Positions 3,063-44,151 of a DNA stretch of 64,000 nucleotides are shown piece by piece (position 1 is the stretch's first letter; every line of letters begins with the position of its first letter). The notes under the pieces were generated by a model. The model had not been told where the DNA came from and made no database searches. It was given only the letters and a program-made list of their open reading frames with translations. The DNA lies in assembly GCF_900104055.1 (NCBI RefSeq), contig NZ_FNJQ01000005.1, positions 14,690 to 78,689 of the forward strand. Direction: 5' to 3'. A program made the translations under genes and the position numbers. The stretch is from Pseudoselenomonas ruminantium (GTDB taxonomy: Bacteria; Bacillota; Negativicutes; Selenomonadales; Selenomonadaceae).

Positions 3063-3593
3063 TTATATATTCTCTGCCGCATCCCAGCCCAGCTGCAGGG
3101 CTTTCATATTGGCCTCTACTGTATGGGGCGGCACTCGTTTGGCGACGAACTCTTTGACCGTGTCGAACTGTACCAGATTGGTGATGCGCACGAGGGCTCC
3201 TAACGCCACGATATTGGCGAACAGGGCTTTGCCGAGTTCCTCCACTGCCAGTTTCGTGATTGGCAGGCGCACGACATGCGGGAAGTCCGGCGTTTCCGGC
3301 ACCAGGCTGTCATCTAATATCAGCAGGCCATCTTTATGCAGGTCGCTGTAGTATTTATCCGCAGCCTTCTGCGTCATGGCCAGCACAAGATCCGGCACTT
3401 CCACATGCGGATGGTAGATTGTCTCGTCACTGATGATGACCTCAGCCTTCGACGCGCCGCCGCGCGCCTCAGGACCGTAGGACTGGCTCTGCGCCGCCTC
3501 TTTGCCTTCGGCAACAGCCGCTTCAGCCAAGAGGATTGCCGCTGTGATCACGCCCTGACCACCGGAGCCGGAGAGTCTTAACTGTTTTTTCAT
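3063..3593 (-). CDS. korC: 2-oxoacid:ferredoxin oxidoreductase, gamma subunit
   Basis: This 176-residue protein is of the pyruvate/ketoisovalerate oxidoreductase gamma type, with the typical N-terminal SGSGGQGV loop at residues 8-15. It is the last gene of a four-gene operon (delta, alpha, beta, gamma) and overlaps the beta gene by four bases. The complex oxidatively decarboxylates a 2-oxoacid, most likely 2-oxoglutarate, to the acyl-CoA and reduces ferredoxin in the cytoplasm. Length is normal. Substrate choice between 2-oxoglutarate and branched-chain oxoacids rests on the resemblance of the alpha subunit to KorA. Confidence 0.88.
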   Translation of the reverse strand: MKKQLRLSGSGGQGVITAAILLAEAAVAEGKEAAQSQSYGPEARGGASKAEVIISDETIYHPHVEVPDLVLAMTQKAADKYYSDLHKDGLLILDDSLVPETPDFPHVVRLPITKLAVEELGKALFANIVALGALVRITNLVQFDTVKEFVAKRVPPHTVEANMKALQLGWDAAENI

Positions 3594-4423
3594 TTATGTG
3601 CACCTCCTGCCCGCTCGATAACCTGATCATAGGCCGTGTCATAGTCCATGGCCGCAGCTTCATATAACAAACCAATCGGGAATTTTTCCGGAGATACCGT
3701 ATTAGAATCGAGTTTATCCCAAGCCGCCTTCATCACGGCATTGTCCCGCATCCACTTCATCATATCGGCCGGGCTGCCGAGTTTGTTCTTGCGCCCATAG
3801 GCCGTGGGGCACTGCACCAATGCTTCGACAAACGAGAAACCGTGGTTGTCGAAGGCCTTGGCAATCATGTCCGTCAGATGCTGCACATGGAAGGCCGTGG
3901 AACGGGCCACATAGGTTGCGCCGGCGGCTTCGGCCAGTGCACAGGCATCGAAGGGCCGGTCAACGGAGCCATAAGGCGCCGTCGTGGCCTTGCGGCCTGT
4001 CGGCGTCATCGGGGATGCCTGCCCACCGGTCATACCGTATATATTATTATTGAAGAGAACTACCGTCAGGTCCACATTGCGGCGGCAGCCGTGAATGAAG
4101 TGATTGCCGCCGATAGCCGTGCAGTCGCCGTCACCCGTGATGACCACGACATTGAGTTCCGGACGGGCCAGCTTGATGCCCGTTGCAAACGGAATCGCAC
4201 GGCCATGCGCCGTATGCAGGGTGTCAAAATCCATATAGCCCGAAGCACGGGACGAGCAGCCGATACCGGACACGATCACCGTATTGTCCTGATTGAGTTC
4301 CGGCCTTTTCGCAATCGCCTGCACGATGGCCTTCATGGCAATGCCGTTGCCGCAGCCGGGACACCAGAGGTGCGGGAGGCGGTTCTGACGGAAATACTGT
4401 TCATATTCTCTTTCTACTGCCAT
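3590..4423 (-). CDS. korB: 2-oxoacid:ferredoxin oxidoreductase, beta subunit (TPP-binding)
   Basis: The 277-residue protein has CPGCGNG at 21-27 and the thiamine diphosphate/Mg motif GDGD (97-100) ... NNN (125-127), followed by YGMTGGQ. This is the catalytic TPP subunit. Its ATG overlaps the last base of the korA stop (TGATG), and its stop overlaps korC, showing tight translational coupling. Confidence 0.93.
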   Translation of the reverse strand: MAVEREYEQYFRQNRLPHLWCPGCGNGIAMKAIVQAIAKRPELNQDNTVIVSGIGCSSRASGYMDFDTLHTAHGRAIPFATGIKLARPELNVVVITGDGDCTAIGGNHFIHGCRRNVDLTVVLFNNNIYGMTGGQASPMTPTGRKATTAPYGSVDRPFDACALAEAAGATYVARSTAFHVQHLTDMIAKAFDNHGFSFVEALVQCPTAYGRKNKLGSPADMMKWMRDNAVMKAAWDKLDSNTVSPEKFPIGLLYEAAAMDYDTAYDQVIERAGGAHK

Positions 4424-5565
4424 CAGCCTTCAACCTCCTTTACCATCTCATCAATACTTGCCAAAATCTCCGCGGGTTCAAACGCCCGCATATTGTACTT
4501 GCCGCAAAGGCTTACCGGGCAAGCACCATTTGCCGCACGGCGCACTTCATGAACGAGCTGACCATAGTTGAGTTCGGCCACGACAATGCCCTTGACCTTC
4601 CTGGCCAGCTCGGCCACCACCTTGTCAGCAAACGGCCAGATGGTCAGCAGTCGCACGAGGCCGACCTTCCTGCCAGCCGCACGGGCTTCACGCACTGCCT
4701 CATAAGCTGTACGCGCCGTACCGCCAAAAGATACTACCGCATATTCCGCATCTTCCATAAAATAGCTTTCCGTATGGATGATTTCCTCACCCACGCGGGC
4801 AATCTTCTCATGCAGGCGGCGGATGGAATCCTCCGTAACCTTCGGGCTGCCGACCGGGAAGCCCGTCTCATCATGAATCAGGCCGGTCACATGGATATGA
4901 TAGCCCTCGCCGAAATCGGCCACATTAGGCACGAGATCTTCTTCCGGCGCAAACGGCTGATAGCCTTCAGCGCGCGTCTTCGTCGGCTTGCGGCGCGGAT
5001 AGATGTCGATTTTCTCGGGCAGTTCCACCTTTTCCCGCAGATGACCGACCATCTCGTCCATCAGCAGCATGACCGGCGTACGGAAGCGCTCAGCATAGTT
5101 GACGGCCATCACTGTGGCATCATAGGTCTCACGCACGCTCCATGGTGACAGCGCAATCACCGGATGGTCACCATGCGTGCCCCAGCGCACCTGCATCACA
5201 TCGCCCTGCGAAGGAGCGGTCGGCTGGCCGGTAGACGGGCCGACACGCTGCACATCCACGAGCACGCAGGGAATCTCAGCGCAGGCCGCATAGCCGATGA
5301 GTTCCTGTTTCAGGGAAAATCCCGGTCCGGAGGTGGCATCCATGACCTTACAGCCTGCCAGCGAAGCACCGAGGATTGCCCCCATCGAGGCAATCTCATC
5401 TTCCATCTGAATGAACTTGCCGCCCGCCTTCGGCAGGAGCTTGGCCATCGTCTCAGCAATTTCCGTGGACGGCGTGATGGGATAGCCCGCGAAAAAATTC
5501 ACGCCGGCCGCAATCGCAGCTTCTGCGCAGGCCTCATTGCCCTGCATTAATCTTGCTTCACTCAT
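4423..5565 (-). CDS. korA: 2-oxoacid:ferredoxin oxidoreductase, alpha subunit
   Basis: The 380-residue protein starts with the pyrimidine-binding domain characteristic of KorA/VorA (GYPITPSTE at about 27-35, MEDEIASMGA, SGPGFSLKQE). A transketolase C-terminal-like domain follows. It lacks the fused gamma domain found in some archaeal and actinobacterial enzymes, consistent with the separate korC. It overlaps the ferredoxin-like korD gene by four bases. The enzyme feeds low-potential electrons from 2-oxoglutarate to ferredoxin in anaerobes. Confidence 0.92.
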   Translation of the reverse strand: MSEARLMQGNEACAEAAIAAGVNFFAGYPITPSTEIAETMAKLLPKAGGKFIQMEDEIASMGAILGASLAGCKVMDATSGPGFSLKQELIGYAACAEIPCVLVDVQRVGPSTGQPTAPSQGDVMQVRWGTHGDHPVIALSPWSVRETYDATVMAVNYAERFRTPVMLLMDEMVGHLREKVELPEKIDIYPRRKPTKTRAEGYQPFAPEEDLVPNVADFGEGYHIHVTGLIHDETGFPVGSPKVTEDSIRRLHEKIARVGEEIIHTESYFMEDAEYAVVSFGGTARTAYEAVREARAAGRKVGLVRLLTIWPFADKVVAELARKVKGIVVAELNYGQLVHEVRRAANGACPVSLCGKYNMRAFEPAEILASIDEMVKEVEG

Positions 5566-5774
5566 GCCACGCCCTCCTTTGCTGCAACTTTATCCACAAA
5601 TATTGCATAATCCGGACAGCGCAGTTCACACTGCCCACAGCCAATACAATCATCCGGATGCGCAACGACAACCTTGCCCAGCTCATCGATCTCAAGCACC
5701 GACTTGGGACAAAAAGCCGCGCAAATGCCGCAGCCCTTACACCGCGCCAGCTTGACGCTAATCTCAGCCTTCAT
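5562..5774 (-). CDS. korD: 2-oxoacid:ferredoxin oxidoreductase, delta subunit (2x[4Fe-4S])
   Basis: The 70-residue ferredoxin-like subunit has two complete CxxCxxCxxxC motifs (Cys 12, 15, 18, 22 and 43, 46, 49, 53). I start it at the ATG at 5774, eight bases after GGAGGCG; an in-frame TTG five codons earlier lies on that ribosome-binding site and is unlikely. As first gene of the operon it is preceded by an AT-rich region with a palindrome. It carries electrons from the TPP site to external ferredoxin. Confidence 0.92.
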   Translation of the reverse strand: MKAEISVKLARCKGCGICAAFCPKSVLEIDELGKVVVAHPDDCIGCGQCELRCPDYAIFVDKVAAKEGVA

Positions 5775-5815
5775 GAAACCCGCCTCCAATTACACAATTA
5801 AATATATCAGATTTT

Positions 5816-5830
5816 ACATAGAATCTATGT
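5816..5830. promoter_or_regulatory. Perfect palindrome upstream of korD, possible operator
   Basis: ACATAGA-A-TCTATGT is a perfect 7-bp inverted repeat with a one-base centre, 42 bases upstream of the korD start in an AT-rich stretch. Its size and place suit a regulator dimer site. I could not assign a clear -35/-10 pair here. Confidence 0.3.
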
Positions 5831-5990
5831 ATATTCGCTATATACTTTTACATCATAGCAGATAATTATGCAAAAATCTACTATTTTTGTAAATAAACGT
5901 AATGTATACATAAACACAATGCAGCAATTTCTGTTAATAATATTGTTCGCCACAAAAAGAAAATCTCCCCCATGCAGAAAAAATAATCTC

Positions 5991-6019
5991 TTTACTTTTT
6001 TTATGACCTGGTATAAAAT
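5991..6019 (+). promoter_or_regulatory. Promoter of the acyl-CoA synthetase gene
   Basis: TTTACT (5991-5996) and TAAAAT (6014-6019) are separated by 17 bases. The predicted leader is about 45 bases long and includes a small inverted repeat, TTAAC/GTTAA (about 6037-6050), before the GAGGTAAACTT ribosome-binding region. Confidence 0.45.
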
Positions 6020-6070
6020 TTATCTTGTATGAGCAATTAACCTTGAGTTAAAGAAGAAAGAGGTAAACTT

Positions 6071-7564
6071 ATGTTTGTTCATGAACTTATTTTACAGGGA
6101 AAACCAGATGCCATGGCCATTGTGGACCACGGGCGCCGCTTCACTTATAAGGAATTTCAGAAAGCTGTCGACAATTGCCGCAACCGTCTATATGCTGCCG
6201 GTGTCCGCAAGGGCGACCGCGTCGGCTTCTTCTCGCGCAACAGTGCCGACTATCTCTTCGCCTATATGGGCGCAGTCTCCCTGGGGGCGATTGCCGTTCC
6301 CATCAACTTCCAGTTGAGCAACCGCGAGATTGCCTACATCATCAAGGATGCCGGTATCCGTGTGCTGCTGACCTATCAGCCACTTAATCTCGTGGATGCC
6401 CTCTCCTCCCTGCGCTGCGACCTGAAGGTCACGCAGTATGATGTCAAGAACTTCTCGAAAGAAGACAAGAAAATCGCCGCAGCTCCGGCTCTGGATGCGG
6501 ATTTTGACGAGCATCAGCCCTGCATGATCCTCTACACCTCCGGCACCACGGGCACGCCGAAGGGCGCCGTGCTCTCCCATCGCAATCTCGTGGCCAACTG
6601 CCAGCAGATGGAAGCTAACGGCATGGGCTGCGAAGCCAAGCACCATGTACTCTGCGTTCTGCCCATGTATCATGTGTTCGGTTTCACCTGCTCCGTCCTC
6701 TATCCTTTCTACAAGGGTGCCGAAGTCGTAATCCTCGATTCCTTCACGCCGAAGGAAACCATCAGCGTCATCCGCGATGAAGCGGTCACCGACCTCTATA
6801 TCGTGCCTTCCATCTGCAGCCTGCTCACGAAGCTGGCCAGCACGGAAGACATGAAATCCCTGCGCCTCGTGGTCAGCGGCGGCACCACCCTGCCCCTGCA
6901 GATCCAGCAGGACTTCATTAAAAAATTCGGCGTGGATATCTGCGAAGGCTACGGTCTCTCCGAAACCAGCCCGGTTGTCACGATGAACCCACCGGAAAAA
7001 CCGATTGTCGGTTCCTGCGGCAAGATTGTGCCGGGTATCCAGTGGCGGCTCATCGATGCCGAAGGCAAGGACGTCCCGCAGGGCGAAGCCGGTGAGCTCG
7101 TCGTCAAAGGCGATAACGTCATGCTCGGCTACTGGAATCTGCCGGATGTGACGCAGGACGCCATGCGCGGCGGCTGGTTCCATACCGGCGACGTAGCCCG
7201 CGCCGATGAAGAAGGCTATATCTACATCGTCGACCGCATCAAGGACATGATCATCAGCATGGGTGAGAACATCTATCCCCGTGAAGTTGAAGAACTCGTC
7301 TACCAGTTCCCCGGCATCTTCGAAGCAGCCGTCATCGGCATCGAAGACAAACTGCGCGGTCAGGCCGGTGCCTGCTTCTACAGCACCCATGACGGCCAGG
7401 ACATCAACGTGCGCGAACTCAAGAAGTTCCTGCAGGCCAACCTTGCCCTTTACAAGATTCCGCGTGAATTCCACCTGATGGAAAAACTCCCACGCACCTC
7501 TACGGGCAAGATTGCCAAACGTATGATCCTCGACGAATTCAACAAAAGCAAAAAGAAAAAATAA
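6071..7564 (+). CDS. AMP-forming acyl-CoA synthetase (FadD-like)
   Basis: The 497-residue adenylate-forming enzyme has the P-loop YTSGTTGTPKG at 155-165, GYGLSETSP, GWFHTGD, DRIKDMI and the C-terminal PRTSTGKIAKR containing the catalytic lysine. Family members activate a carboxylic acid to acyl-AMP and then to acyl-CoA. Length and motifs fit long- or medium-chain fatty acyl-CoA ligases, but the substrate cannot be read from sequence. It is a single-gene transcript with its own promoter and a strong downstream terminator, divergent from the kor operon. Confidence 0.9.
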   Translation: MFVHELILQGKPDAMAIVDHGRRFTYKEFQKAVDNCRNRLYAAGVRKGDRVGFFSRNSADYLFAYMGAVSLGAIAVPINFQLSNREIAYIIKDAGIRVLLTYQPLNLVDALSSLRCDLKVTQYDVKNFSKEDKKIAAAPALDADFDEHQPCMILYTSGTTGTPKGAVLSHRNLVANCQQMEANGMGCEAKHHVLCVLPMYHVFGFTCSVLYPFYKGAEVVILDSFTPKETISVIRDEAVTDLYIVPSICSLLTKLASTEDMKSLRLVVSGGTTLPLQIQQDFIKKFGVDICEGYGLSETSPVVTMNPPEKPIVGSCGKIVPGIQWRLIDAEGKDVPQGEAGELVVKGDNVMLGYWNLPDVTQDAMRGGWFHTGDVARADEEGYIYIVDRIKDMIISMGENIYPREVEELVYQFPGIFEAAVIGIEDKLRGQAGACFYSTHDGQDINVRELKKFLQANLALYKIPREFHLMEKLPRTSTGKIAKRMILDEFNKSKKKK

Positions 7565-7575
7565 ACTGTTATAGC

Positions 7576-7619
7576 AAAAGAAATCCCTTGCAGGCTGACG
7601 CCCGCAAGGGATTTCTTTT
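7576..7619. terminator. Bidirectional terminator, acyl-CoA synthetase / exopolysaccharide operon
   Basis: A perfect 16-bp stem, AAAAGAAATCCCTTGC (7576-7591) / GCAAGGGATTTCTTTT (7604-7619), lies between convergent genes. The A/T-rich outer parts give a T run in both directions. It overlaps the last two bases of the 7618-9288 gene. Confidence 0.9.
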
Positions 7620-9288
7620 ATTTGTGCTGCTCTTTGCTTTGATCATAGCCATCTTGCAGATAATCACCCAAAAGAGCCACCTTGAATTTGCCCGGATGCC
7701 CCTCCGGTAGATTGTCATTAGCCGTCAGCAGGATGTCCAGTGCCTCCGGCGTGCGTTTGGCCGTTGCGCTCATATGCATGATAAGGATAGCGCCCCGGCG
7801 GACATTGCCCTTTTCATCATGCACGATCTTGTTCATGATTCCCACCAGCGATTGCATGGATACAGCACCATAATCCTCGGTACTGCCAGAACCGTTGACG
7901 ATATAGGTATAACCGGCATTGAAGATTGCCTTTGCTCCCATACGGCTCACAGCCAGCGTAGGCGGACGCAGGAGTCTGGTGAGGGCCGGACGTCCGCTGT
8001 CCAGACGCATATCCCCCACCACGGCGAGCAATTTGGGATAGGAAGATTCCACATCCGCCTTGTACTCCTCTTCACTTTCCACAGGAATCTGCTTCCCGCG
8101 CTTGTCCTGCACCGTCATGGCCACATGATTGTTGGTATGGCTGCCAATCTCATTGCCCTCACTGGCGATAGCCCGCAACAAGTTGGGATTGTTCAGCATA
8201 TTGCGGGTGATGATGAAGAACGTACCATGAACATGATGCTTGCGCAGTACATAGAGTATCTTATTGATGGAATCATCATTGCCCCAGTCGTCAAAAGTCA
8301 GAAAGACCGTCTGCGGTGGTGCCGTCTTGACCAGCCCGGTCGTGTCAGCCCGGGCCATTTCCGTACGGGAAAAGCCCAGCATACGGTCAATGGCACCGAC
8401 TTCCGGTGCACCGATATACCGGCGATAGAATTCCTGCATAAAATTCTTATCCGTAATCTGATTGGCTCCATATTCCGGCTGCATTTCGATGGGCAGATCA
8501 TCCGGATTCACCGGATAAGTATAATGTTCAGCTTTATTCTTTGCCACATCAGCCAGCGACGAAGTATGATACGCCGAATCATTGTCAGGGCTATCGGCTG
8601 TATCCTGCGGAGCATAACCGATATTGTCCAGTTTCTGCTTCTTGATCTCCCGGAGCATATCGGCCGCCAGATTATCATGGGTATAAAAATCCGTGCGCAG
8701 ATAGACGATTTCCCCGCGGTTCAGCGAGGTCGTCCATTTGCCAAAAATCTGCGGCATCACCTCGGCCGGACTTTGGGCGTCCTTGTGCTTGGACTGCACC
8801 ACATTGAGCCCCTGACTGATCAGGGTACAGCCTGTTTTGGCCACGGCCTCCTGCATTGCTTCCTGATTGCCGCCGCCGGACATGATACGGACGAAATTAC
8901 TGCTTACGCCAAAATCGGCCTGCAGGGCTTTCCGGATGCGCTGAATTTGCGCACAATAGTCCTGTACGCCGCCCTCCTTCGTGGGAACCAGGCCAATGGC
9001 CATATCCTGGCCGAAGCTGCGGATCAACTGCAGATTCGCCCGGTTCCGCTGCAATTCCCGCTCTGTGACGAAGAACGTCCCGCGCAGTTTTTCGGCCTGC
9101 ATATAATTCAGGATATTCTGCAACGGTGCCTGCCGCGAAAGACCGCCAAAGGTCAGGATCACCGTTTTTTCCGTTGTAGCCAGAAAGCGGTGCGGCTGAG
9201 CTGGCTGCGCACTGGCAGGCGCCGTCAGGAAGCACAGGCCGGCCATGGCGATCACAGCACCTCGCTGAAAGAAGCTATATTTGTGCAT
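7618..9288 (-). CDS. Secreted protein with two NodB-like polysaccharide deacetylase domains
   Basis: The 556-residue protein has a signal peptide (about 1-28) and two NodB-type halves. The first (about 42-260) is degenerate: TFGG (46-49) replaces the TFDD metal/catalytic motif. The second (about 325-545) keeps TFDDW (331-335), the metal-binding SHTNNH (383-388) and an RPP motif, so it is probably active. Family members remove acetyl groups from N-acetylated glycans. It is the last gene of the seven-gene exopolysaccharide operon and presumably modifies the polymer in the periplasm. The start follows GGAGG at a rather long 12-base distance. Confidence 0.85.
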   Translation of the reverse strand: MHKYSFFQRGAVIAMAGLCFLTAPASAQPAQPHRFLATTEKTVILTFGGLSRQAPLQNILNYMQAEKLRGTFFVTERELQRNRANLQLIRSFGQDMAIGLVPTKEGGVQDYCAQIQRIRKALQADFGVSSNFVRIMSGGGNQEAMQEAVAKTGCTLISQGLNVVQSKHKDAQSPAEVMPQIFGKWTTSLNRGEIVYLRTDFYTHDNLAADMLREIKKQKLDNIGYAPQDTADSPDNDSAYHTSSLADVAKNKAEHYTYPVNPDDLPIEMQPEYGANQITDKNFMQEFYRRYIGAPEVGAIDRMLGFSRTEMARADTTGLVKTAPPQTVFLTFDDWGNDDSINKILYVLRKHHVHGTFFIITRNMLNNPNLLRAIASEGNEIGSHTNNHVAMTVQDKRGKQIPVESEEEYKADVESSYPKLLAVVGDMRLDSGRPALTRLLRPPTLAVSRMGAKAIFNAGYTYIVNGSGSTEDYGAVSMQSLVGIMNKIVHDEKGNVRRGAILIMHMSATAKRTPEALDILLTANDNLPEGHPGKFKVALLGDYLQDGYDQSKEQHK

Positions 9289-9320
9289 GTTTTTGCATAT
9301 CCTCCTTGAAAGCTTGAAAT

Positions 9321-10358
9321 CTATTTTGTGCGAACATTTTTAATGTCCATGTTGCCGCCCAGCCGCCAAAGGCTGATGCTGCTGATGCCCTCATCTGCGG
9401 CCGCCTTGATCCAGGCATTGATGGTCTCACTGTCGGCATACCAGAGTTCATAGTGGTGCCCGTTTTCCTCATAGGTCCCATGCAGGGCGGCGCTGGCTTC
9501 ATCCCGTTCGGGTGCCAGCGCATGTGCCTTAGCAAGACTGGCCGCCTCTGCTTCATCGACAAAACGCACCGGGCCTTTTTTCAGTCCCAGCAGGCCGTAA
9601 TCTTCCCAAAGGCAGCCGCCCGTAGCCAGGGCCACGGCTTTCCGGCCGGGAAGGGCGGCCATCTTCTGAATGGTCTTATGGATGAATCCTGCATCGGCTT
9701 TAGGACCGGGGCCGCTATGCCCGCCATGGAGATTGTAGAGCATCACCACATACTCCGGCCCCTTGCAAAAGCCGGCATCCATAGGCATACCGGGCTCCAG
9801 CACGATGCGCAGGTCAAGATTTTCCTTGAGACAGGCTGCTGACAGCTTGTAGGTCAGGCCAAGATAAGCCTGCAGCAGATCCTTATCCTTGTAAAATGCT
9901 TCATAATCCAGCTCCACCCCGGTGCAATCAGCCTTCTGGGCGGCAGCCACCATTTCCCGGACCACAGCCTCTTTCTGTTCGTCACCGGCCAGCAGACGCT
10001 TTAGCAGCGCCGTGTCCTTGGCGTGCTTTTTACCTTTTGCATCCTGCCAGTCATTGGTGATGGAAAGATAGCGTTTGGCATTTCCCTCTTTGCGCGCGGA
10101 CTGCACGATTTCTTTGATTTCTGCGGGCAGCACGAGCTTGTCTTCGCTGTTATACGACGCCGTAAAGGCGGATACGCCCGTCAGATGATGCTTGAGTTGT
10201 TTGTACTCAGCAACGCCGCGCCCGGCATCCCACTGAGCCGCCCAGGCAGACAGTTCCACCTGCGGATGCGCCCCGCTTTTAAGCGGCGCACTCTGGGCAC
10301 AGCCCGCTGACAGGGCCAGACTCAGGGCCAGCGCCAGTATGTGAATATGCTTTCTCAT
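9321..10358 (-). CDS. GH18-like lipoprotein of exopolysaccharide operon
   Basis: The 345-residue lipoprotein has lipobox LSAGC with Cys20. I start it at 10358, where AGGAGGGCATCGTT precedes the ATG; the open frame extends 60 codons further but overlaps the upstream gene without a site. The fold resembles the glycoside hydrolase 18 TIM barrel: D144..GVELDYE ends in the DxE pair (Asp151, Glu153) expected of GH18 catalytic centres, though the first Asp of DxDxE is Glu149. Such proteins in exopolysaccharide loci hydrolyse or trim the polymer, comparable in role to the glycosidase half of PgaB. Whether it is active is uncertain. Confidence 0.75.
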   Translation of the reverse strand: MRKHIHILALALSLALSAGCAQSAPLKSGAHPQVELSAWAAQWDAGRGVAEYKQLKHHLTGVSAFTASYNSEDKLVLPAEIKEIVQSARKEGNAKRYLSITNDWQDAKGKKHAKDTALLKRLLAGDEQKEAVVREMVAAAQKADCTGVELDYEAFYKDKDLLQAYLGLTYKLSAACLKENLDLRIVLEPGMPMDAGFCKGPEYVVMLYNLHGGHSGPGPKADAGFIHKTIQKMAALPGRKAVALATGGCLWEDYGLLGLKKGPVRFVDEAEAASLAKAHALAPERDEASAALHGTYEENGHHYELWYADSETINAWIKAAADEGISSISLWRLGGNMDIKNVRTK

Positions 10359-10371
10359 AACGATGCCCTCC

Positions 10372-12279
10372 TCAGGCATTGCGCAGGAACCAGAACAGGA
10401 CCTTATCCCAAAGTTCCCCGGTCTGGAAGAGCAATTTGTTCCAGCCGGAAAGCTCTGTAGTGAACAGGACTTTTTCCTTGTCCTTCCCCGTATTGGTCGT
10501 GATGGTGAACTTATCGAACACCGCATCATAGACATCATCGGCCAGATTGCGCTGACTCCAGGCCTCGCCTTGCCAGGATGCTCCTAAGAAGATACTGCCC
10601 TGACCGTTTTCGGTCACTTCAATGGGCTGCGGGACTTCCTTCCCATCCAGCCTGATTTTCAATCTGCCGCCCTTGAGGTCGATATCCAGCTGATGGTCGC
10701 CGCGGCGGTGGAAACTCTGTACATGGTCATAGGGCTCTGCCCCGTCTGCAATAGAGGCGGCCGGCATCTCTTCCCGCTTCTTGGCCCGGCCATAGTATTC
10801 CTCCGCCTGCTCCTTGGTCTTGGCATAGCGGGCAAAGGTCAGGTTTTCCTGCACTTCCGCTTCCTTCTTTTTCTCCTCCACAGAAGAGATGGTCTCCCCA
10901 AGTATTACAGGAATCTTTTCCTGATACAGATCCCGCCTTGCGCCGCCGTGCTTTTCAAACACCACTAGCTGATCGTTGATGAGTTCTACACACAGGCAGT
11001 TTTCCCGGTTGCTGTCGCTGCGCAGGAAAATCTGCTGAGCACCGAAGGCATTGCCCATTAGTTTCGTGGACAATTTCACATCCGGCAAGCTGCTGCTTTC
11101 CCGTACTTCGGCAACAGCCTCGCCTTCCGGCAAAGTGGTCAGCGTATAGGTTTCATTTTCGATTTCCGCTGCCCCTGCGAGCAGATTCCAGGCATCCTGC
11201 CGGGAAGCATCACCGGAAACGAAGTCAATCGGCGTGTTGATATCGTACTTTATGCGCATCAGCAGATGATTGATGGGCCAATAGGGCTGCGGCTCCATGC
11301 GGGTGAGGTCATAGATGCTGCTGTTCCGCTGATTGAAGCAGTAGCCCTCGCGGTTGAAGGCCATAGGGAAAAGCTCCCGTATCCATTTCTCATTCACGGC
11401 GCTGACCGCATTGTTGTTGGCGAATTTACCCGTGTTACCGTGCATATGCACATAGGTTCCGGGGACTTTCCCTAGCTCGCTGGTATAGACATCTTTCAGT
11501 TTCTCGTAATCATAACTAATGCGCCGCTTCATATGGCCATAGCTTTCCTTGGGCACTCCGTTCTTATCCCGGATATAATCCATAAGATAGTGGTTGTAAT
11601 TGCGCTCCAGATAAGGTGTCAGCATGGCATAACGCAGGGGATCGATCTCCCCGATATAATTATGGTACCGGTCGAAGACATTGATGTATTCCAGACGGTA
11701 ACCATTGGTTCCCAGTTCCCAGTAAGTCGAGTCTTCCAGTTCTTCCAGCTCGGAAGGCTTGAGGAACTTTAGATCCATTGATTCGACATTTTCGCCGTAG
11801 CTCATCATGCTGGCCTTGTAATTCAGCTTCTCCAGGATGGGCTGGGCAAAGATAGCCGTATCGCGGCGACCATCCTCAAACATCAGATAGAGGGCTTTTT
11901 GCGGTAACGGCCGGCCCTGCTGATAGTAATCCTTGATATCTTGCTGGGTGATGGTGACAAACCCCTGCTTCTTGAGCTCCTGCAGCTGCTTATACAGCTG
12001 CTTCTGCCCAATCAGCGTGGAGGTATCGCCGATATGGTCCACACCGAAATAAGACAATGCCACAAAGCCCGTATCGGTATCGCCGGCCGCCACCTCATCG
12101 TGGTTATAAGGTTTATAGGTATCCAGACTGTAGAACAGGTCATAGAGGATGAAAAGCAGCAGGGCCACCACGGCAATCTCCGCCATGACACGCAGACGCT
12201 TTCTGAGATTCTTGCGCTTAGAGAATCTGTCATCCCCAAGCGCCAGCACTCTTATGTCCCGAGTTTCCTTATGGTTCAT
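10372..12279 (-). CDS. Membrane-anchored NodB-like deacetylase with C-terminal sandwich-like domain
   Basis: The 635-residue protein has one N-terminal membrane segment (33-50) and a periplasmic NodB-like region with MFEDGRRD (133-140). A mixed region (about 350-600) rich in beta-strand-like sequence follows and looks like a LamG/concanavalin-type carbohydrate-binding fold. The first Asp of the deacetylase DD pair is Glu, so catalysis is uncertain. The layout, with a membrane anchor and an altered deacetylase, recalls PgaB/IcaB-like modifiers. It overlaps the upstream synthase gene by 11 bases, so the two products are probably made together. Confidence 0.7.
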   Translation of the reverse strand: MNHKETRDIRVLALGDDRFSKRKNLRKRLRVMAEIAVVALLLFILYDLFYSLDTYKPYNHDEVAAGDTDTGFVALSYFGVDHIGDTSTLIGQKQLYKQLQELKKQGFVTITQQDIKDYYQQGRPLPQKALYLMFEDGRRDTAIFAQPILEKLNYKASMMSYGENVESMDLKFLKPSELEELEDSTYWELGTNGYRLEYINVFDRYHNYIGEIDPLRYAMLTPYLERNYNHYLMDYIRDKNGVPKESYGHMKRRISYDYEKLKDVYTSELGKVPGTYVHMHGNTGKFANNNAVSAVNEKWIRELFPMAFNREGYCFNQRNSSIYDLTRMEPQPYWPINHLLMRIKYDINTPIDFVSGDASRQDAWNLLAGAAEIENETYTLTTLPEGEAVAEVRESSSLPDVKLSTKLMGNAFGAQQIFLRSDSNRENCLCVELINDQLVVFEKHGGARRDLYQEKIPVILGETISSVEEKKKEAEVQENLTFARYAKTKEQAEEYYGRAKKREEMPAASIADGAEPYDHVQSFHRRGDHQLDIDLKGGRLKIRLDGKEVPQPIEVTENGQGSIFLGASWQGEAWSQRNLADDVYDAVFDKFTITTNTGKDKEKVLFTTELSGWNKLLFQTGELWDKVLFWFLRNA

Positions 12280-14128
12280 GCCGTTTCTTTTCCTTCCTTT
12301 CTTTCTTCAGCCGTTCCTTTTCCATCTCTGCCAGGTCTGCCGGCGTCAGACGGGTTCCCCAGGTCGATTTCCAGAACGTGAACCAGGCCACGGGCATCTG
12401 CCAAAGCAGGACCGCCTCGTAATAGAGACAGAACCACATACCGAAAATCCAGGTGGTGCTGCGCCGCAGAAACAGCTGCGCCATGCTCATGAGCATCGCC
12501 ATCAGGAACATCCCCACCATGAAGGTAATGGGAAATACCCGGTGCATGATGGGGACATAGATGAGGTTATAGAGCACGATGATCGGCGCCGCAATCGGCA
12601 CGGCCAGCCCCATATAGAAGCTCAGGGACATGAACGGCTCCTTCTTCCAGATATAGCGGGCCGCAATCAGGGACTCCCGCAGCCACGAACGCTTCCAGCG
12701 CATCTGCTGCTTCAAAAACATCGTATAGGAATTAGGCACGATGGTCCGGCAGACCGCCGAATCCTGATAAGCCGTACGGTTATGGCGCAGGATGAAGTTC
12801 GTCATACTGCGGTCATCACCGAAGGTCGCCTTCTGCCCCAAAAACTTCTGATTCAGCCAGGCATCGGCATATTTCAGCACCAGATCCCGGCGGTAACAGG
12901 AAAGCGGCCCCGAAAGACAGGTCACCGCATCAAAATAACTCTCTGCGGCCTTCATGATGCGAAAGGCGATATAGTAACGCACGGACTGCATCCGGGTAAG
13001 CGCATTGGTGTAGGTATTGGCCACGTCCGTGCGCCCGGAAACACCGCCCATCTCCTTATCCTTGAATGGTTGGACAATATTCCGCACTGCATAGGGATCA
13101 AGGAAGCTGTCCGAATCGACAAAAACCAGCAGTTCATGTTTGGCCTCAGTGGCGCCCCAAGCCATGGCATCCCGCTTTCCCTTGTTGAATGGCTGAACCA
13201 GATAGCGGATTCGGTCTGCCATATGATAATTGCCATTCTCCGCATCTGCGCCCTTGATCTCTTCGATGGCCTCCCTGATGCGATCCACCGAGTGGTCATT
13301 GGAATGGTCATCCACCACAATGACCTCCAGCTTGTCTGCCGGATAATCCTGATTGATACAGCTCCGGATGGTGTTCTGAATCCAGTTTTCCTCGTTGAAA
13401 CACGGAATGATCACCGTAACACCCGGCGTATAATCCGGATCGATCTTCACCGGCCGGTAAAAAACGGCAAAAAAATAACGCGAGAGCAGGAAGGTCGCCG
13501 CAATAATGCTGTAGAGATAAAGCCAGCGGTTAAAGCGGAAATAGACCACCGATTCTGCCCGCATCAGGATGATGACCAGCGTGATGATGCCCAGACAGAA
13601 CGCTGACGCTGCCAGCATATAGTTCTGCCGTTTGTCCGCAGCATACTGTGCCAGGGTATCGGCAAACTCCACGCCGCATAAGGCCATGCCGTCCTCCCCG
13701 TTTGTCATGCGCACGCAATTGGCCTTGAGCGAACGGATTTTCATCTCATACCCTTCAGGCATGGAGCCGGGCGTAATCGTGAAACTGAGTTTGACACGGC
13801 CGGCCGCCTGCAGTTTCGCGCCTTGTTCCGCAGGCAGCTTCAGCAGCATACCTGTGGTGCTGATGTCCACGGCCTGCGCCGTCAGACTGCAGGACTTTCC
13901 CTGATGGCTGAATACTGCCTGCACCTCATAGTCCACGACATAACGGCGGCCTCTTTTATCCTCCTGCTGGAACTGTTCGTAGCTGCCGCCAGCCTCTGCC
14001 GCGCCCTCAAACCCTCGGCGGTCGTGATTGCTGCGCACACCGGAATCATCCGGCACATAGGAAAGCAGGCGGCGGTCCGGTTTCTCCACGCAGAGTACAT
14101 CCCTGCGGGGCTTTATTTTCTGAATCAT
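12269..14128 (-). CDS. PilZ-domain GT2 polysaccharide synthase
   Basis: The 619-residue processive glycosyltransferase has an N-terminal PilZ domain (about 55-160) with the exact DxSxxG motif DISTTG (88-93). Two membrane segments (about 171-190, 203-225) follow. The GT2 domain carries VDDHS, the DxD segment VDSDS (337-341), GDD (438-440 region) and QxxRW (Q474-R477-W478), and further membrane helices lie at about 505-590. The set matches membrane synthases such as PgaC, Alg8 and BcsA that polymerise and export a glycan. The fused PilZ domain suggests cyclic-di-GMP control, although the RxxxR motif appears as KRGRR. It overlaps both neighbours. Confidence 0.88.
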   Translation of the reverse strand: MIQKIKPRRDVLCVEKPDRRLLSYVPDDSGVRSNHDRRGFEGAAEAGGSYEQFQQEDKRGRRYVVDYEVQAVFSHQGKSCSLTAQAVDISTTGMLLKLPAEQGAKLQAAGRVKLSFTITPGSMPEGYEMKIRSLKANCVRMTNGEDGMALCGVEFADTLAQYAADKRQNYMLAASAFCLGIITLVIILMRAESVVYFRFNRWLYLYSIIAATFLLSRYFFAVFYRPVKIDPDYTPGVTVIIPCFNEENWIQNTIRSCINQDYPADKLEVIVVDDHSNDHSVDRIREAIEEIKGADAENGNYHMADRIRYLVQPFNKGKRDAMAWGATEAKHELLVFVDSDSFLDPYAVRNIVQPFKDKEMGGVSGRTDVANTYTNALTRMQSVRYYIAFRIMKAAESYFDAVTCLSGPLSCYRRDLVLKYADAWLNQKFLGQKATFGDDRSMTNFILRHNRTAYQDSAVCRTIVPNSYTMFLKQQMRWKRSWLRESLIAARYIWKKEPFMSLSFYMGLAVPIAAPIIVLYNLIYVPIMHRVFPITFMVGMFLMAMLMSMAQLFLRRSTTWIFGMWFCLYYEAVLLWQMPVAWFTFWKSTWGTRLTPADLAEMEKERLKKERKEKKRHEP

Positions 14129-15081
14129 TTAGCTGAGCCTCCTTGGCTTTTCGGCTGCGGCATGGGAAAGCCGGCAGGAACATAATAGATCTTGCGGAAC
14201 TGATTCACGAAAACGGCCTGCATGTCGCGCCGTTCCATAGCCGATAGCAGCAGATCCACTTCTGCCGCCAGGTCTGCCTGCGGCGGGACCGGAGCGCTGT
14301 TATCCTCCCGGATGGTCGGCTTCATATCCACCGCCGGCTTCTCCTCACGCGTGGCCATATCATTGGCCTTCACTTCCACAGGAAGGTCTACCGGTATGGC
14401 GATGATACTGCCATATGCAATCGTGCGGACATAAGCATCCGCCTCGGCCGCATTATGGATATGTCCGGGCTGGAACCGCACATTTTCCTTGACGGCATAC
14501 TCCAAACCTGCCGCCCGCACTGACTTCAGCAGATCATCCGTATAGACCGTGCGCGGTGCGCGGAAGAGATTCGGCGCCAGCGGATCATGCATGGTAATGA
14601 CCTTCTGGGCACGGCAGATTTCCCGCAGCTGTTCCTCCACGGGGCGTTTTTCCAGCCCAGCCAGGCCGACATACGTGTAGTTGCCCACTTCCTGTCCGGC
14701 CTGCCGGATCAATGTGATGACCTCCGGCACATCGGCCACATTCTCCCCTTCCAGGAAGAATACGGCGGCCGCCTTATGCTTTGCCAGTACATCCAGCAGC
14801 CTTGCCGCCAGCGGGCGGTCCGGCATGCCGTCAAAGACCAATGCAATGCGATGCGTGCCATCCTGCAACGTGGTGATCACCTCCACCGGTTTGATAGCCG
14901 GATCCTGACGTTTCTCTGCCGCCTCGCTGATCTCAGCCTGCGCCATGTAATTCTTGGTCAGGTCTGTGATGTCCGGGATAAATTCCGTTTTCTCGACGAC
15001 ATGATCTCGGATGAACACCAGCGCGCCGATCACCACGGCCAGACAGAGGGCCACCATAAATGCGAGTTTCTTGAAATTCAC
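14125..15081 (-). CDS. Membrane-anchored degenerate NodB-like protein
   Basis: The 318-residue protein has an N-terminal membrane segment (7-24) and a NodB-like domain from about residue 78. Motif 1 is LVFDGMP (81-87), lacking one Asp. The metal-binding H(S/T)xxH motif is replaced by NYTYV, while the FRAPR motif is retained. It probably binds rather than deacetylates glycan. The C-terminal 90 residues are low in recognisable structure. Its stop overlaps the start of the PilZ-GT2 synthase (ATGA), suggesting a fixed stoichiometry with it. Confidence 0.65.
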   Translation of the reverse strand: MNFKKLAFMVALCLAVVIGALVFIRDHVVEKTEFIPDITDLTKNYMAQAEISEAAEKRQDPAIKPVEVITTLQDGTHRIALVFDGMPDRPLAARLLDVLAKHKAAAVFFLEGENVADVPEVITLIRQAGQEVGNYTYVGLAGLEKRPVEEQLREICRAQKVITMHDPLAPNLFRAPRTVYTDDLLKSVRAAGLEYAVKENVRFQPGHIHNAAEADAYVRTIAYGSIIAIPVDLPVEVKANDMATREEKPAVDMKPTIREDNSAPVPPQADLAAEVDLLLSAMERRDMQAVFVNQFRKIYYVPAGFPMPQPKSQGGSAK

Positions 15082-15102
15082 GGTGAAAATAAACCTCCCG
15101 TC

Positions 15103-16413
15103 TTACAGACACCAATACGTATAACCGGCTCTTTCCGCCGCCACCCGGCCATAGATGCTCTTCACATCAATGAGGATTGGCTGCTTTCCAGCGCGATAAT
15201 ATTTCTTCCAATCCTGCAGGGAACGCTGGCTGTAAGTATCATGCGCCACCAGCAGCACCAGGCAGTCTGCGTCACGGATATCGTTCTCATCCACAAGTTC
15301 GATACCATATTCGCGCTGGAAATCCTCTCGGTCAGCCCAAGGATCGGCCGCCGTTACCTGCAGGCCATATTCCTGCAGATTGTGATAAATATCCACAGAA
15401 CGGGAGTTGCGCGTATCCGGACAATTCTCCTTGAAGGTCATACCCAGCAGATAAATCCTGGCTTTTGGTGCATCAATGCCAGCCCGCAGCAAGACCTTGA
15501 CAATCTCATGGGCCACGAATTTGCTCATATCGTTATTGATGCGGCGGCCGGCAGAAATCATCTGCGAATGGCGGTCGAGATTCTCTGCCTCGTAGATAAA
15601 ATAATACGGATCTACGCCGATGCAATGCCCGCCCACCAGGCCGGGACGGAAGCCCAGCGAATTCCATTTGGTATCCATGGCCTTGGCCACTTCCTCCGTA
15701 TCGATATCCATTTCATGGAACACCATGGCCAGCTCGTTCATAAAGGCGATATTGATATCACGCTGGGTATTCTCCACCAGCTTAGCCGCTTCAGCCACGC
15801 GGATGGAGGACGCCTTGTAAACCTTGTCAATGATGGAACTGTAGACGTCGGCCACTTCCTCCAAAGATTCCGTATCTTCTGCCGAAACGATCTTGGTGAT
15901 ATTCTGCAGGCGATGCTGCTTATCCCCGGGATTGATGCGTTCGGGTGAATAGCCGATCTTGAAATCCTGACTGCCGGCAAGACCGGATTTCTCTTCCAGC
16001 AGCGGGCGGCAGATATCCTCCGTCACGCCGGGATACACCGTCGATTCATAGACTATCAGGCTGCCCGGCTTAAGATATCTGGCCACCGTTTCGGTAGCAC
16101 CTTTCACCGGCGCCAGGTCCGGTGTTTTGTCCCCATTGATGGGCGTAGGCACCGCCACAATGATGAACGAAGCCTCCGACAGCCGTGCCGGATCTGAAGT
16201 GAACTCAATCGTACTGTCCTGCAGGGCTTCGTCGCCGATTTCCGCCGTAACATCATGTCCTTGCCGGTATTTCTCTATTTTCCGCTCGTTGCGGTCAAAA
16301 CCGATGACCGAAAATTTCTCAGCAAATGCGGCGGCCAGCGGCAGACCTACATACCCCAGTCCTACGACGGCCATCTTTGCTTTCCCATCTTCGAGTTTTC
16401 TAAGCATATCCAT
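15103..16413 (-). CDS. UDP-N-acetylhexosamine / UDP-hexose 6-dehydrogenase
   Basis: The 436-residue nucleotide-sugar dehydrogenase has the Rossmann motif GLGYVGLP (18-25) and the catalytic Cys264 in GGHCIGVDPYY. By motif pattern it is closest to the WbpA/TviB type that makes UDP-GlcNAc or UDP-GalNAc uronic acids. I start at the ATG at 16413, after AAAGGAAGC; the upstream open frame overlaps the neighbouring gene. It would supply an acidic activated sugar to the synthase encoded downstream. The exact sugar cannot be decided from sequence. Confidence 0.85.
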   Translation of the reverse strand: MDMLRKLEDGKAKMAVVGLGYVGLPLAAAFAEKFSVIGFDRNERKIEKYRQGHDVTAEIGDEALQDSTIEFTSDPARLSEASFIIVAVPTPINGDKTPDLAPVKGATETVARYLKPGSLIVYESTVYPGVTEDICRPLLEEKSGLAGSQDFKIGYSPERINPGDKQHRLQNITKIVSAEDTESLEEVADVYSSIIDKVYKASSIRVAEAAKLVENTQRDINIAFMNELAMVFHEMDIDTEEVAKAMDTKWNSLGFRPGLVGGHCIGVDPYYFIYEAENLDRHSQMISAGRRINNDMSKFVAHEIVKVLLRAGIDAPKARIYLLGMTFKENCPDTRNSRSVDIYHNLQEYGLQVTAADPWADREDFQREYGIELVDENDIRDADCLVLLVAHDTYSQRSLQDWKKYYRAGKQPILIDVKSIYGRVAAERAGYTYWCL

Positions 16414-16453
16414 GTTAATCAAAGCTTCCTTTTCCTGAAAATAGACTTGGAAA

Positions 16454-18097
16454 TCATTCCCGATAGTTCTTGAAGTATTTCGTAACCGATCCCCAGATGG
16501 TGTTGCCGGTCCTGCCATTATCAAGGCTGCGCAGATGGTAAAGCTCCAGACCTAAGGACCAGTCATGGGGCAGGTTATAGCTGCAGCCCCAGCCCCAGCC
16601 GCGGAATCCATTGAATCCGCCACCCATGCCGTTCATGGTGTGATTGATATACGTTGCCCGCGGCTGATGATAATACTTCAGCCAGCTGCTATAGGCATAG
16701 GGCTGCCAACTGTTCTGCGGCGCATAAGCCAGCGTCAGCACATAACCTGTCCGGCCGCTTTTCCCCTGCTCCCTGCCGTGCAGGAGCATCGCACTGGCAT
16801 CGAAGATACCGACGTTATGACGGTAATTGCCCATATAAATATCATCGCGCTGACCATTCTCATAAGCAAAATGGTAATAACCGGCGCCCACACCATAAGC
16901 TGCCGCCTTATAATCAACGGTCAGGTCATAAGTCCGCTTCATCCCATCATCGCCGGCCTTGCCAGCTTCCACGGAATAGCGCACCGGCTTGCCGGCAGTC
17001 AGGCGCACGCCCTTGAACTTGCTGTCATAGACATTGCCCTCAGCCATCAGGCTGCCAAAGGCGCCGATATCGGTCTGCACCAGCCCCATTTTGCCGCTCA
17101 GGTAGTAACGGTCAAAATTCACCTTGCCATCCTTGCTGAACTTCCTGCCCGACAAGGTTTTCTGCCATTCGATCATGCCCTTGGCATGCCAATTGGGGGC
17201 AAACTCATAATCCGGATAAAGGCGTACGCGTGCTCTGGTGCGTGTCTGCGTCCCGCTGGACCGGCCCGAATCCACTCTTAGCTCCGTATCCAGTTTGAAA
17301 GCCTGATCCGGAACCTCCCGGACCGGAAGATTCGAAGCCAGCTGCTGGCGGGCACTCATCTTATCCAGACTGCCATTTTTCTCCAGTTCCGACAAGAACT
17401 CCGCCCGGAGCCGGCCCGCATTTTTCAGCACAGATGCCGGCATAGCTGCGGCCTGAGGTTTTCCTCCATTATTTCCATTACTGCCATTCATCGCCTCCAA
17501 CAGGCTCTGCTGCCGTTTTTGGGCATAGGCCAGCAGTTCTGCCCGCTGCACGCAGCGGGTTTTGGCTTCCGCATAATCCCGGGCGGCATATTCCAGTTCA
17601 GCCTGGGCCTTATCGTGCTTCGCCTTCAAAGGTTCCATGACTTCCAAGCGGTTCTGCCCCTGCATCGAGCGGCGGATATACATCTCTGCCGCTCTGGCTG
17701 CCTTCGCGCGGGCCCTTTGGCAGCGGGATGTCGCCACTGCCTCCTGCTCCCGGGAAAGTTTCAGTTCCACCTCATCCACCACCAGCAGCCGGGTGATCCG
17801 GGCATACTCATCACTCAGACGGCCTGTGCGGTTTTTCTCCACCTCATTGAGGGCTTTAGCCACCATGTCACTGAGTTCCTGCCTGGAATACGCATTCAGG
17901 GGGCGCAGCGGCAGTTCCATATAACCTTCGGCTGCCAGCTGCAGCATGGAATCATAAACCCAGGGCTGTACCTGCGCCGGTGCGGCCCAGCCGACGGCCA
18001 TCGGCCCGCCAAGTCCTAAAAAAAACGCCCCCAGCAGGCTTCTTCTAACAGAAACTCTTAGGGGGCTACCATGATGTTTACCAGTCCTCATCGACAA
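16454..18097 (-). CDS. Outer-membrane beta-barrel with SLH-like head and coiled coil, exopolysaccharide operon
   Basis: The 547-residue protein has a signal sequence (to about 38) and a short SLH-like segment (about 45-90: PWVYDSMLQLAAEGYMELP, later SRQELSDMVAKAL). A long helical region (about 90-215) is rich in A, E, K, R and likely coiled. From about 270 to the end come alternating strands of an outer-membrane barrel. Start is TTG nine bases after AAAGGA. First gene of the operon, it is the natural candidate for the outer-membrane export pore. It lacks the TPR repeats of BcsC/PgaA/AlgK, with an SLH/coiled-coil region where those would be. It ends NYRE rather than Phe. Confidence 0.7.
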   Translation of the reverse strand: MSMRTGKHHGSPLRVSVRRSLLGAFFLGLGGPMAVGWAAPAQVQPWVYDSMLQLAAEGYMELPLRPLNAYSRQELSDMVAKALNEVEKNRTGRLSDEYARITRLLVVDEVELKLSREQEAVATSRCQRARAKAARAAEMYIRRSMQGQNRLEVMEPLKAKHDKAQAELEYAARDYAEAKTRCVQRAELLAYAQKRQQSLLEAMNGSNGNNGGKPQAAAMPASVLKNAGRLRAEFLSELEKNGSLDKMSARQQLASNLPVREVPDQAFKLDTELRVDSGRSSGTQTRTRARVRLYPDYEFAPNWHAKGMIEWQKTLSGRKFSKDGKVNFDRYYLSGKMGLVQTDIGAFGSLMAEGNVYDSKFKGVRLTAGKPVRYSVEAGKAGDDGMKRTYDLTVDYKAAAYGVGAGYYHFAYENGQRDDIYMGNYRHNVGIFDASAMLLHGREQGKSGRTGYVLTLAYAPQNSWQPYAYSSWLKYYHQPRATYINHTMNGMGGGFNGFRGWGWGCSYNLPHDWSLGLELYHLRSLDNGRTGNTIWGSVTKYFKNYRE

Positions 18098-18168
18098 TTA
18101 TGACAATCCTTTCATCTTTCTCGACTTCATCCAATCTTTTACAACACTTCCAAAAAAAATATAATGCT

Positions 18169-18197
18169 ATTCTAATCACCCTCTAATGCAAAGTCAA
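18169..18197 (-). promoter_or_regulatory. Promoter of the exopolysaccharide operon
   Basis: TTGACT (18197-18192) and TAGAAT (18174-18169) are separated by 17 bases. The predicted leader is about 65 bases, too short for a cyclic-di-GMP riboswitch, and none is recognisable. No other promoter was noticed within the seven genes. Confidence 0.7.
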
Positions 18198-18762: not shown

Positions 18763-19611
18763 ATGGAAATTTTAACCACTCTCCAAGCCATCAAAGACTA
18801 TGCCGCACAGGCCAAGAAACAAGGCAAGAGCATCGGTCTCGTGCCCACTATGGGTGCCCTGCATGAAGGCCATCTGACACTTATGCGTGAGGCCCGCGCC
18901 AAATGCGATATCGTGATTGCCTCGGTCTTCGTCAACCCCACCCAGTTTGGCCCCAACGAGGACTACGATGCCTATCCGCGCCAGTTCGCCGCCGACTGCG
19001 AAAAACTCGAAAGCGTAAACGTGGACGCCGTATTCCATCCGGAACCTGCCGAAATGTACCCGGAAGGCTACTGCACCTATGTCAATGTCGAAGGCGATAT
19101 CACCCACAAACTCTGCGGCGCCCAGCGCCCCGGCCATTTCCGCGGCGTGGCAACCGTCGTGACGAAACTCATCAACCTTGCCCGGGCTGACGAGGCTTTC
19201 TTCGGCCAGAAAGATGCCCAGCAGGTCACGGTCATCCGCCGTTTCGTGGAGGACCTCAATATCAACGTCCATATCAACATGGTGCCCATTGCGCGCGAAG
19301 AAAACGGCCTGGCCCGCAGTTCCCGCAACACCTACCTATCCCCGGCAGAAAAAGAAGCAGCCCTCGTGCTCTCCCGCAGCCTCAAAGCGGCCAAAGCGGC
19401 CTTTGCCAATGGCGAACGGGAAATCTCTGCGCTGGAACATATCGTCACCGAAGAACTGCACAAGGAACCCATGGCCAATATCGACTATGTCAAAGCCTAT
19501 GCCTATCCGTCCCTCAAGCCATTGACTGAGGCTAGTGAAGACACCCTGCTGGCCATCGCCGTGAAGATCGGCAAGACGCGCCTGATCGACAATGTGATTC
19601 TCTCTGCCTGA
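18763..19611 (+). CDS. panC: Pantothenate synthetase
   Basis: The 282-residue protein is of normal PanC length, with [10 protein letters not shown] (28-37; HIGH-like nucleotidyl motif), [12 protein letters not shown] and SSRNTYLS. It joins pantoate and beta-alanine using ATP to make pantothenate. panD follows 16 bases downstream, so the operon makes both beta-alanine and pantothenate; panB is not in the window. AAGGAGC precedes the ATG. Expression probably depends on passing the attenuator in the leader. Confidence 0.97.
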
Positions 19612-44033: not shown

Positions 44034-44151
44034 GATTATCTCCTCCGTTCTTGAGATAGAACTAATAATTAACCGTTCCCGGAGGCAAGTGTCCATGTTT
44101 CCTTGTCCCTTGGGATGATTTAATTATATTACTTGACTAGCTCAAATACAA
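44034..44151 (-). promoter_or_regulatory. Porin promoter and conserved 5' leader (copy 3)
   Basis: TTGTAT (44151-44146) and a perfect TATAAT (44128-44123) have 17-base spacing. The leader holds AAGGAAACATGGACACTT (44104-44087), matching the shared element except at the ends. It lies about 12 bases from the predicted transcript start. Confidence 0.72.

Follow-up and report, generated by a model that had tools for sequence, protein, structure and literature searches.

Introduction

The closest described relatives of the locus reported here are spread over several systems. The poly-N-acetylglucosamine (PNAG) operons pgaABCD/icaADBC bring together a family GT2 synthase, a PgaB-type NodB protein, a hydrolase fold and an outer-membrane barrel; class I hyaluronan synthases carry the blocks GPL, FLG..GDDRxxTN, SWxRE and WGTR; the OmpM tether-porins of Negativicutes have a 16-strand fold with a helical stalk; and the clostridial cellulose (Ccs) and RiGT2-type beta-glucan synthases hold PilZ and GT2 domains in one protein (passages of PMC7710045 and PMC10374906). 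These features recur in a seven-gene operon, here A to G, within a 64,000-nucleotide stretch of Pseudoselenomonas ruminantium DNA (contig NZ_FNJQ01000005.1; the window). It encodes a predicted outer-membrane barrel (A), a uridine diphosphate (UDP)-sugar dehydrogenase (B), NodB-fold proteins (C, E and G), a PilZ-GT2 synthase (D) and a GH18-like predicted lipoprotein (F). It joins a membrane-bound GT2 synthase to modifying proteins and, in diderms, to an outer-membrane barrel, and we read it as a synthase-dependent polysaccharide system, apparently not described before, whose core is common across Bacillota and which in diderms has an OmpM-like portal (probability roughly 0.78). The product would perhaps be a partly deacetylated polymer of amino sugar and uronate; the acidic amino-sugar polymer put forward in the first-pass annotation likewise stays a proposal.

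The locus departs from each of its relatives. Unlike in PNAG operons, the synthase D comes from another GT2 group, E lacks the metal-binding His pair and the GH18-like function sits on a separate gene, F; the operon adds a dehydrogenase, extra NodB units and an OmpM-like barrel, and no PgaD-like gene lies between its open reading frames. Unlike class I hyaluronan synthases and NodC, with which it shares 25–31.5% identity, D has an N-terminal PilZ domain and adjoining genes for export and modification. Protein A resembles OmpM proteins in fold, in its stalk and in the N-terminal similarity of its profile to SLH porins; however, it is bound to the operon, has no Pfam SLH match in 36 members and short loops in its model, and its stalk is missing or replaced by TPR repeats in some lineages. 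In RiGT2 the PilZ domain is C-terminal and the GT2 domain BcsA-like, and the gene neighbours of the Ccs and RiGT2 synthases differ from those of D. A cellulose assignment was rejected, as D scores 43.7 bits on the CelA model against a cut-off of 699.1 and is thus not BcsA-type. PelF and PelG define Pel systems, and both are named for Pel in passages of PMC7112194; the sole glycosyltransferase of the seven genes here is a GT2 protein, and a PelG-like multi-span transporter is absent from their Pfam matches. The first-pass annotation, made from the sequence alone, had held that the combination matches no named system, and it was right in that Pga/Ica, cellulose and Pel all differ from it in gene content or synthase type.

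Diderm Firmicutes serve for studying how an outer membrane is gained or lost. In the open-access literature (subscription papers and preprints apart) we found no description of this operon, nor of any matrix-polysaccharide pathway of diderm Firmicutes. The main text of PMC7112194 does not contain the word Negativicutes; according to its passages, Gram-positive species have lost genes for outer-membrane pores, and a passage of PMC7549365 raises an 'unknown exopolysaccharide' as a possibility for Veillonella. If our reading holds, relatives with one and with two membranes would reveal which demands the outer membrane places on export of a polysaccharide, as a single pathway could be compared between monoderms and diderms with the portal gene as the chief difference. 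The locus would also offer a testable case of a porin recruited as an exporter, and it brings to light a group of PilZ-bearing synthases whose motifs are those of hyaluronan synthases, as well as a PgaB-like protein with an invariant site that is not of CE4 type.

Distribution of the operon

Full-length D (at least 64% identity) occurs in 17 of 59 other genomes, and one more (G053) has high-identity D fragments; A adjoins D in all 18, the pieces in G053 being spread over contig ends. Across 250 genomes of the class, E was found in 56, and in 55 of these A is no more than 8 kb away on that contig, so that the co-occurrence of barrel and operon in other genomes, which the first-pass annotation had named as a test, was borne out. 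The exception, G187, has E and the barrel on different contigs. Barrel matches of 246 bits or less, presumably other porins, were not counted in this comparison (except that of G066 itself). Gene order is A-B-C-D-E-F-G in Selenomonadaceae-type loci and A-B-G'-D-E-F in other families, G' being a fusion described below.

An E-based collection scan, from which the best 80 of 252 relatives were kept, extended the comparison beyond the class. From organism labels and general knowledge we split the 80 loci into 30 from Clostridia, which we class as monoderm, and 50 others. The 30 include loci from Clostridium, Butyrivibrio, Faecalibacterium, Acetobacterium, Anaerocolumna, Lachnospiraceae and Oscillospiraceae; D and E are in every one (30/30 each), F is in 29 of them, G in 27 and B in 10; none has A. 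By contrast, A is present in 48 of the other 50, the two without it being contigs of about 6 kb, and B in 46. A barrel profile searched against the 30 whole Clostridia genomes gave 0/30 matches; the search itself works, because the same profile matches in 153 of 250 class genomes and in the source genome. Some diderm-type loci carry odd labels, namely Peptococcaceae (L083) and metagenome-assembled genomes of Acholeplasmataceae (L097, L099). On a Paenibacillus megaplasmid, a G-like gene, B, D, E and F are consecutive, with D 55% identical. In a sample of the phylum that included the class itself, E was found in 7 of 299 genomes, three of them labelled as outside the class, one with a barrel (G509) and two without (G417, G543). 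As judged from gene content, then, the core of multi-NodB protein, PilZ-GT2 synthase, E and GH18-like protein is not diderm-specific. The operon had been annotated as a system of a diderm Firmicute; this stands for the barrel, which is tied to the operon, and not for the core, which also occurs in monoderm Clostridia and Paenibacillus.

The synthase

The top NCBIfam match of D is NodC, at 174 bits against a cut-off of 550, and Pfam Chitin_synth_2 matches as well; its closest solved relatives are hyaluronan synthases (128 bits). With two hyaluronan synthases D shares the blocks CxxGPLxxY, FLG..GDDRxxTN, RWx[KR]S[WY]xRE and WGT(R), whose counterparts are CCCGPCAMY, GEDRHLT and WLSR in NodC and TED-type blocks in PgaC and IcaA. 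The catalytic GDDR, TN, QxxRW and WGTR are present in all 78 rows of the D alignment. Identity is 31.5% to Xenopus HAS1 (273 columns), 28–31% to NodC, 25% to the Chlorella virus hyaluronan synthase, 23% to PgaC and 21% to IcaA. In a GT2 tree, eight diderm-type rows split from all others with support of 99.9/99, a split that old vertical descent fits better than recent exchange. The tree is unrooted, with an Actinomyces row excluded, and cannot place D nearer hyaluronan synthases than NodC or PgaC; it is the motifs that place it there. A Nod-factor reading was set aside on the NodC score and the differing motif blocks.

These data bear on the possibility that D makes a chitin-like homopolymer of N-acetylglucosamine (GlcNAc), which G would convert to chitosan, with B working in a different pathway or for a side branch. 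The NodC and Chitin_synth_2 matches suit such a product, as does the identity of D to NodC, similar to that with Xenopus HAS1 and above that with the viral enzyme, and B was not seen in 20 of the 30 loci from Clostridia, some of these ending nearby. Because of this last observation a uronate would not be needed everywhere. Against a homopolymer stand the presence of B in nearly all diderm-type loci and in Paenibacillus, and the hyaluronan-synthase form of FLG..GDDRxxTN and WGTR in D. We regard it as possible though doubtful. According to passages of PMC12987647, Lys177 and Arg341 of hyaluronan synthase sandwich the donor carboxylate and Arg348 contacts the priming loop; the corresponding K318, R477 and R484 of D are invariant in 17 rows. 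They do not settle the substrate of D, because NodC has the same residues.

By its motifs the PilZ domain carries only half of the usual signature for cyclic di-GMP (c-di-GMP). DxSxxG is kept, with S and G invariant across the ungapped rows and D in 75 of 77 (N in the other two). The second Arg of RxxxR is likewise present in 77/77 ungapped rows; however, in 74 itemised rows the first position is not Arg, being usually Lys (the commonest), Gln, Asn or Glu. Passages of PMC13339959 term c-di-GMP signalling in Selenomonas unstudied. The source genome has 15 GGDEF matches, so c-di-GMP is probably made in the organism. Upstream of PilZ, two Arg-Arg pairs (R19-R20 and R37-R38; window 13950–14128) occur in 77/77 ungapped rows.

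NodB-fold proteins

Three of the proteins had been called NodB-like; the folds stood up, and the family CE4 residues proved to be missing from C, E and the first domain of G. In C, FDGMP-like and GNYT sequences replace the CE4 motifs TFDDG and HSxxH in 11/11 rows. In G, the first domain reads [TSV]F[GA]G and the last TFDDW with H[ST]xxH. Among G reading frames of at least 500 residues, TFDD and H[ST]xxH occur together in 45 of 48 from diderm-type loci and in 17 of 26 from Clostridia; seven of the remaining Clostridia frames have TFDDW without the His pattern, and two, from Faecalibacterium, have neither. In the latter (L122:5370-7964 and L123:5370-7964) a C-terminal GDSL acylhydrolase takes the place of the CE4 domain, a swap to be expected if the last domain of G is a modifying enzyme. 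In other families C and G are fused as G', a protein of about 850–894 residues; C matches its first third and G the remainder, and thus the two are pieces of one triple-NodB unit. One locus (L058) has a second G-type gene (7773-9515) directly behind the fused triple-NodB gene (5204-7756).

Protein E scores below the Pfam NodB cut-off (20.0 against 23.1 bits) and also matches PgaB. Its predicted structure (predicted local distance difference test, pLDDT, 87.7) has a helix at the N-terminus, the fold of the PgaB N-domain (Z 21.7, root-mean-square deviation 2.8, 251 residues aligned) and a CBM66-like domain (Z 17.5, deviation 2.5, 154 aligned). Many of its Foldseek rows are generic jelly-roll or lectin-fold proteins, above which PgaB and CBM66 score. 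Residues E135, D136, G137, D140, G190, G193, R195, H280, N282 and T283 are invariant in 81/81 rows, and in alignment with E. coli PgaB (96.6% probability) the first Asp becomes Glu and both metal-binding His residues are gone. By these alignments the site of E (FEDGRRD, GTNGYR, HxNT) is conserved yet not CE4. Taken with the motifs of C and G, most NodB domains of the operon lack CE4 residues and only the last domain of G is canonical.

The PgaB-like fold of E, and its alignment to PgaB itself, could mark the operon as a divergent PNAG (Pga) locus. This is very improbable: D lacks the PgaC/IcaA blocks and scores 108 bits against the PgaC cut-off of 422, E has lost both metal-binding His residues, and A of the window has no TPR match.

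The outer-membrane barrel

An outer-membrane barrel had been proposed for A, and structure prediction agreed, giving a stalk followed by 16 strands with loops that are short by secondary structure alone (pLDDT 80.7, predicted template modelling score 0.53). The top structural match is Veillonella OmpM1 (Z 26.4, deviation 3.7, 286 aligned), followed by another porin at Z 21.4. No Pfam family matches A above its cut-off, and across the 36 rows of the barrel alignment, which omits partial barrels, two tandem ones and the four long ones of Sporomusa, 17 stray families appear in at most two rows each. The N-terminal part of the A profile matches SLH-type porins of the source genome (E 4e-6 to 8e-4). 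Four minus-strand SLH porins in the window (1484-2785, 42768-44096, 44440-45771 and 45933-47249) pass Pfam SLH, three of them also Porin_5, and are weak profile relatives of A.

The length of sequence preceding the barrel varies, from about 35 residues in Pelosinus-type loci (L084, L093) to about 800 in Sporomusa, where A (L090, L096, L102, L104) reaches about 1110–1135 residues with N-terminal TPR repeats and a barrel. TPR matched neither A of the window nor any of the 36 aligned rows. TPR repeats with a 16-strand barrel are the layout of PgaA, BcsC and PelB. Our main argument that A acts as the portal is this layout in Sporomusa together with the strict operon link. The OmpM/SLH-porin family is the probable source of A, whose periplasmic part would have been altered between lineages, being an SLH-like coil, almost nothing or TPR repeats. 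In another locus (L072) there are two barrel genes (3412-5790 and 14865-17324), with stalks that look internally repeated, and two G genes.

Alternatively, the polymer might stay in the envelope, attached to the wall or periplasmic, with A a tether-porin whose stalk binds polymer or wall and exports nothing. The nearest fold of A would suit that role, since OmpM1, according to passages of PMC10628300, is both a tether of the outer membrane and a general porin for nutrient uptake, and so would the N-terminal profile matches to SLH porins. Yet A is strictly tied to the operon, unlike general porins, and a wall-binding stalk is not conserved, given its reduction in Pelosinus-type loci and the TPR repeats in Sporomusa. 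We judge retention in the envelope unlikely.

Dehydrogenase and GH18-like protein

B resembles amino-sugar-type enzymes, scoring 428 bits on the TviB model (cut-off 592) against 124 bits on that of the UDP-glucose dehydrogenase TuaD. Its closest PDB relatives are Cap5O and the N-acetylmannosamine- and N-acetylgalactosamine-uronate dehydrogenases. F matches a cortical-lytic enzyme in the PDB (E 1.2e-5), which we take to be of GH18 type. In the GH18 motif DxxDxDxE, the last D and the E are present in 80/80 rows of F, the middle D is replaced by E in 78 of 80, and the first D is found in 42.

Proposed mechanism

We propose that D would polymerise UDP-GlcNAc, probably along with a uronate made by B, and pass the chain across the inner membrane, and that E and C, with the first part of G, would keep hold of it and guide it. 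Removal of N-acetyl groups would fall to the last domain of G and trimming of the polymer to F, and A would provide its way out across the outer membrane; monoderm relatives would run this machine without A. A fuller account, as apt to prove wrong as right, is of a Bacillota-wide machine with a hyaluronan-synthase-like polymerase and a mostly non-canonical deacetylase scaffold, for which an OmpM tether-porin was recruited as export portal, and in which the TPR rebuild of Sporomusa converges on the PgaA/BcsC layout.

Several observations weigh against reading the operon as a synthase-dependent export system. Pfam SLH matches neither A of the window nor any of the 36 rows of the barrel alignment, and the nearest fold, OmpM1, is a tether and general porin, as A could be too. 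One genome, G207, has a barrel and no detected E, the only such case among the 57 barrel genomes compared; its barrel lies 0.9 kb from the first base of the contig. F scores 16.6 bits on Pfam GH18, below the cut-off of 29.6, and B was not seen in many Clostridia loci as noted above. RxxxR of D is incomplete, and passages of PMC10374906 describe a clostridial PilZ domain with intact residues that failed to bind c-di-GMP. Lastly, the product, its control by c-di-GMP and its export are things we infer.

Operon layout and flanking features

The seven co-directional genes with overlaps that had been annotated were found in place on the minus strand, from 18097 to 7618 (Table 1). C and D overlap by 4 bp and D and E by 11 bp; with the preferred starts, the remaining four gaps are 13–40 bp. 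For B and F these starts are not those of the longest reading frames: B is preferred from 16413, with a ribosome-binding-like AAGGAAG upstream, and F from 10358 (MRKHIHI...), with the lipobox SAGC. The annotated domains held in part, with the dehydrogenase (B), NodB (C and G) and PilZ and GT2 (D) above Pfam cut-offs and NodB in E and GH18 in F below.

Table 1. Features of the operon in window coordinates
Feature	Position	Strand	Length (residues)	Evidence
A, outer-membrane barrel protein; start ATG 18091 or TTG 18097; N-terminal stalk then barrel	16454..18097	-	547	predicted structure
A, predicted 16-strand beta-barrel, model residues 265-541	16469..17299	-		model, OmpM1 fold match
A, helical stalk, model residues 43-202; SLH-like start, then long helical hairpin	17486..17965	-		model
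B, amino-sugar-type UDP-sugar 6-dehydrogenase, TviB-like	15103..16413	-	436	Pfam, NCBIfam, PDB relatives
C, NodB fold, N-terminal membrane helix, degenerate CE4 motifs	14125..15081	-	318	Pfam Polysacc_deac_1, alignment
D, PilZ (N-terminal) then processive-type GT2, hyaluronan-synthase-like motifs	12269..14128	-	619	Pfam, NCBIfam, motif comparison
D, PilZ domain, residues 61-158	13655..13948	-		Pfam 29.0 bits, cut-off 22.5
E, PgaB-like NodB fold, inner-membrane-anchored, CBM66-like domain, altered invariant site	10372..12279	-	635	model, alignment
F, GH18-like predicted lipoprotein	9321..10358	-	345	weak Pfam, PDB relative, motif
G, tandem NodB, first degenerate, second canonical CE4; signal peptide predicted by eye	7618..9288	-	556	Pfam Polysacc_deac_1, alignment
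Sigma-70-like promoter match TTGACT-17-TAGAAT	18169..18197	-		10/12 match, weak
Intrinsic-terminator hairpin	7575..7620	-		perfect stem, -35.6 kcal/mol, z -9.9

The terminator, annotated at 7576–7619, is a strong hairpin to which 0/200 shuffles were equal in stability. The promoter called upstream of A is present as a match; on its own it is weak evidence, because similar numbers of sites arise in shuffled sequence (18 promoter-like sites between 5500 and 19000 against 11.3 ± 3.8, within about two standard deviations). A PADLOC scan of D and E gave no match, and at Rfam gathering thresholds the sole match in the whole window was tRNA. The operon is flanked on the plus strand by genes for an AMP-binding ligase (6071-7564) and a pantoate ligase (18763-19611).

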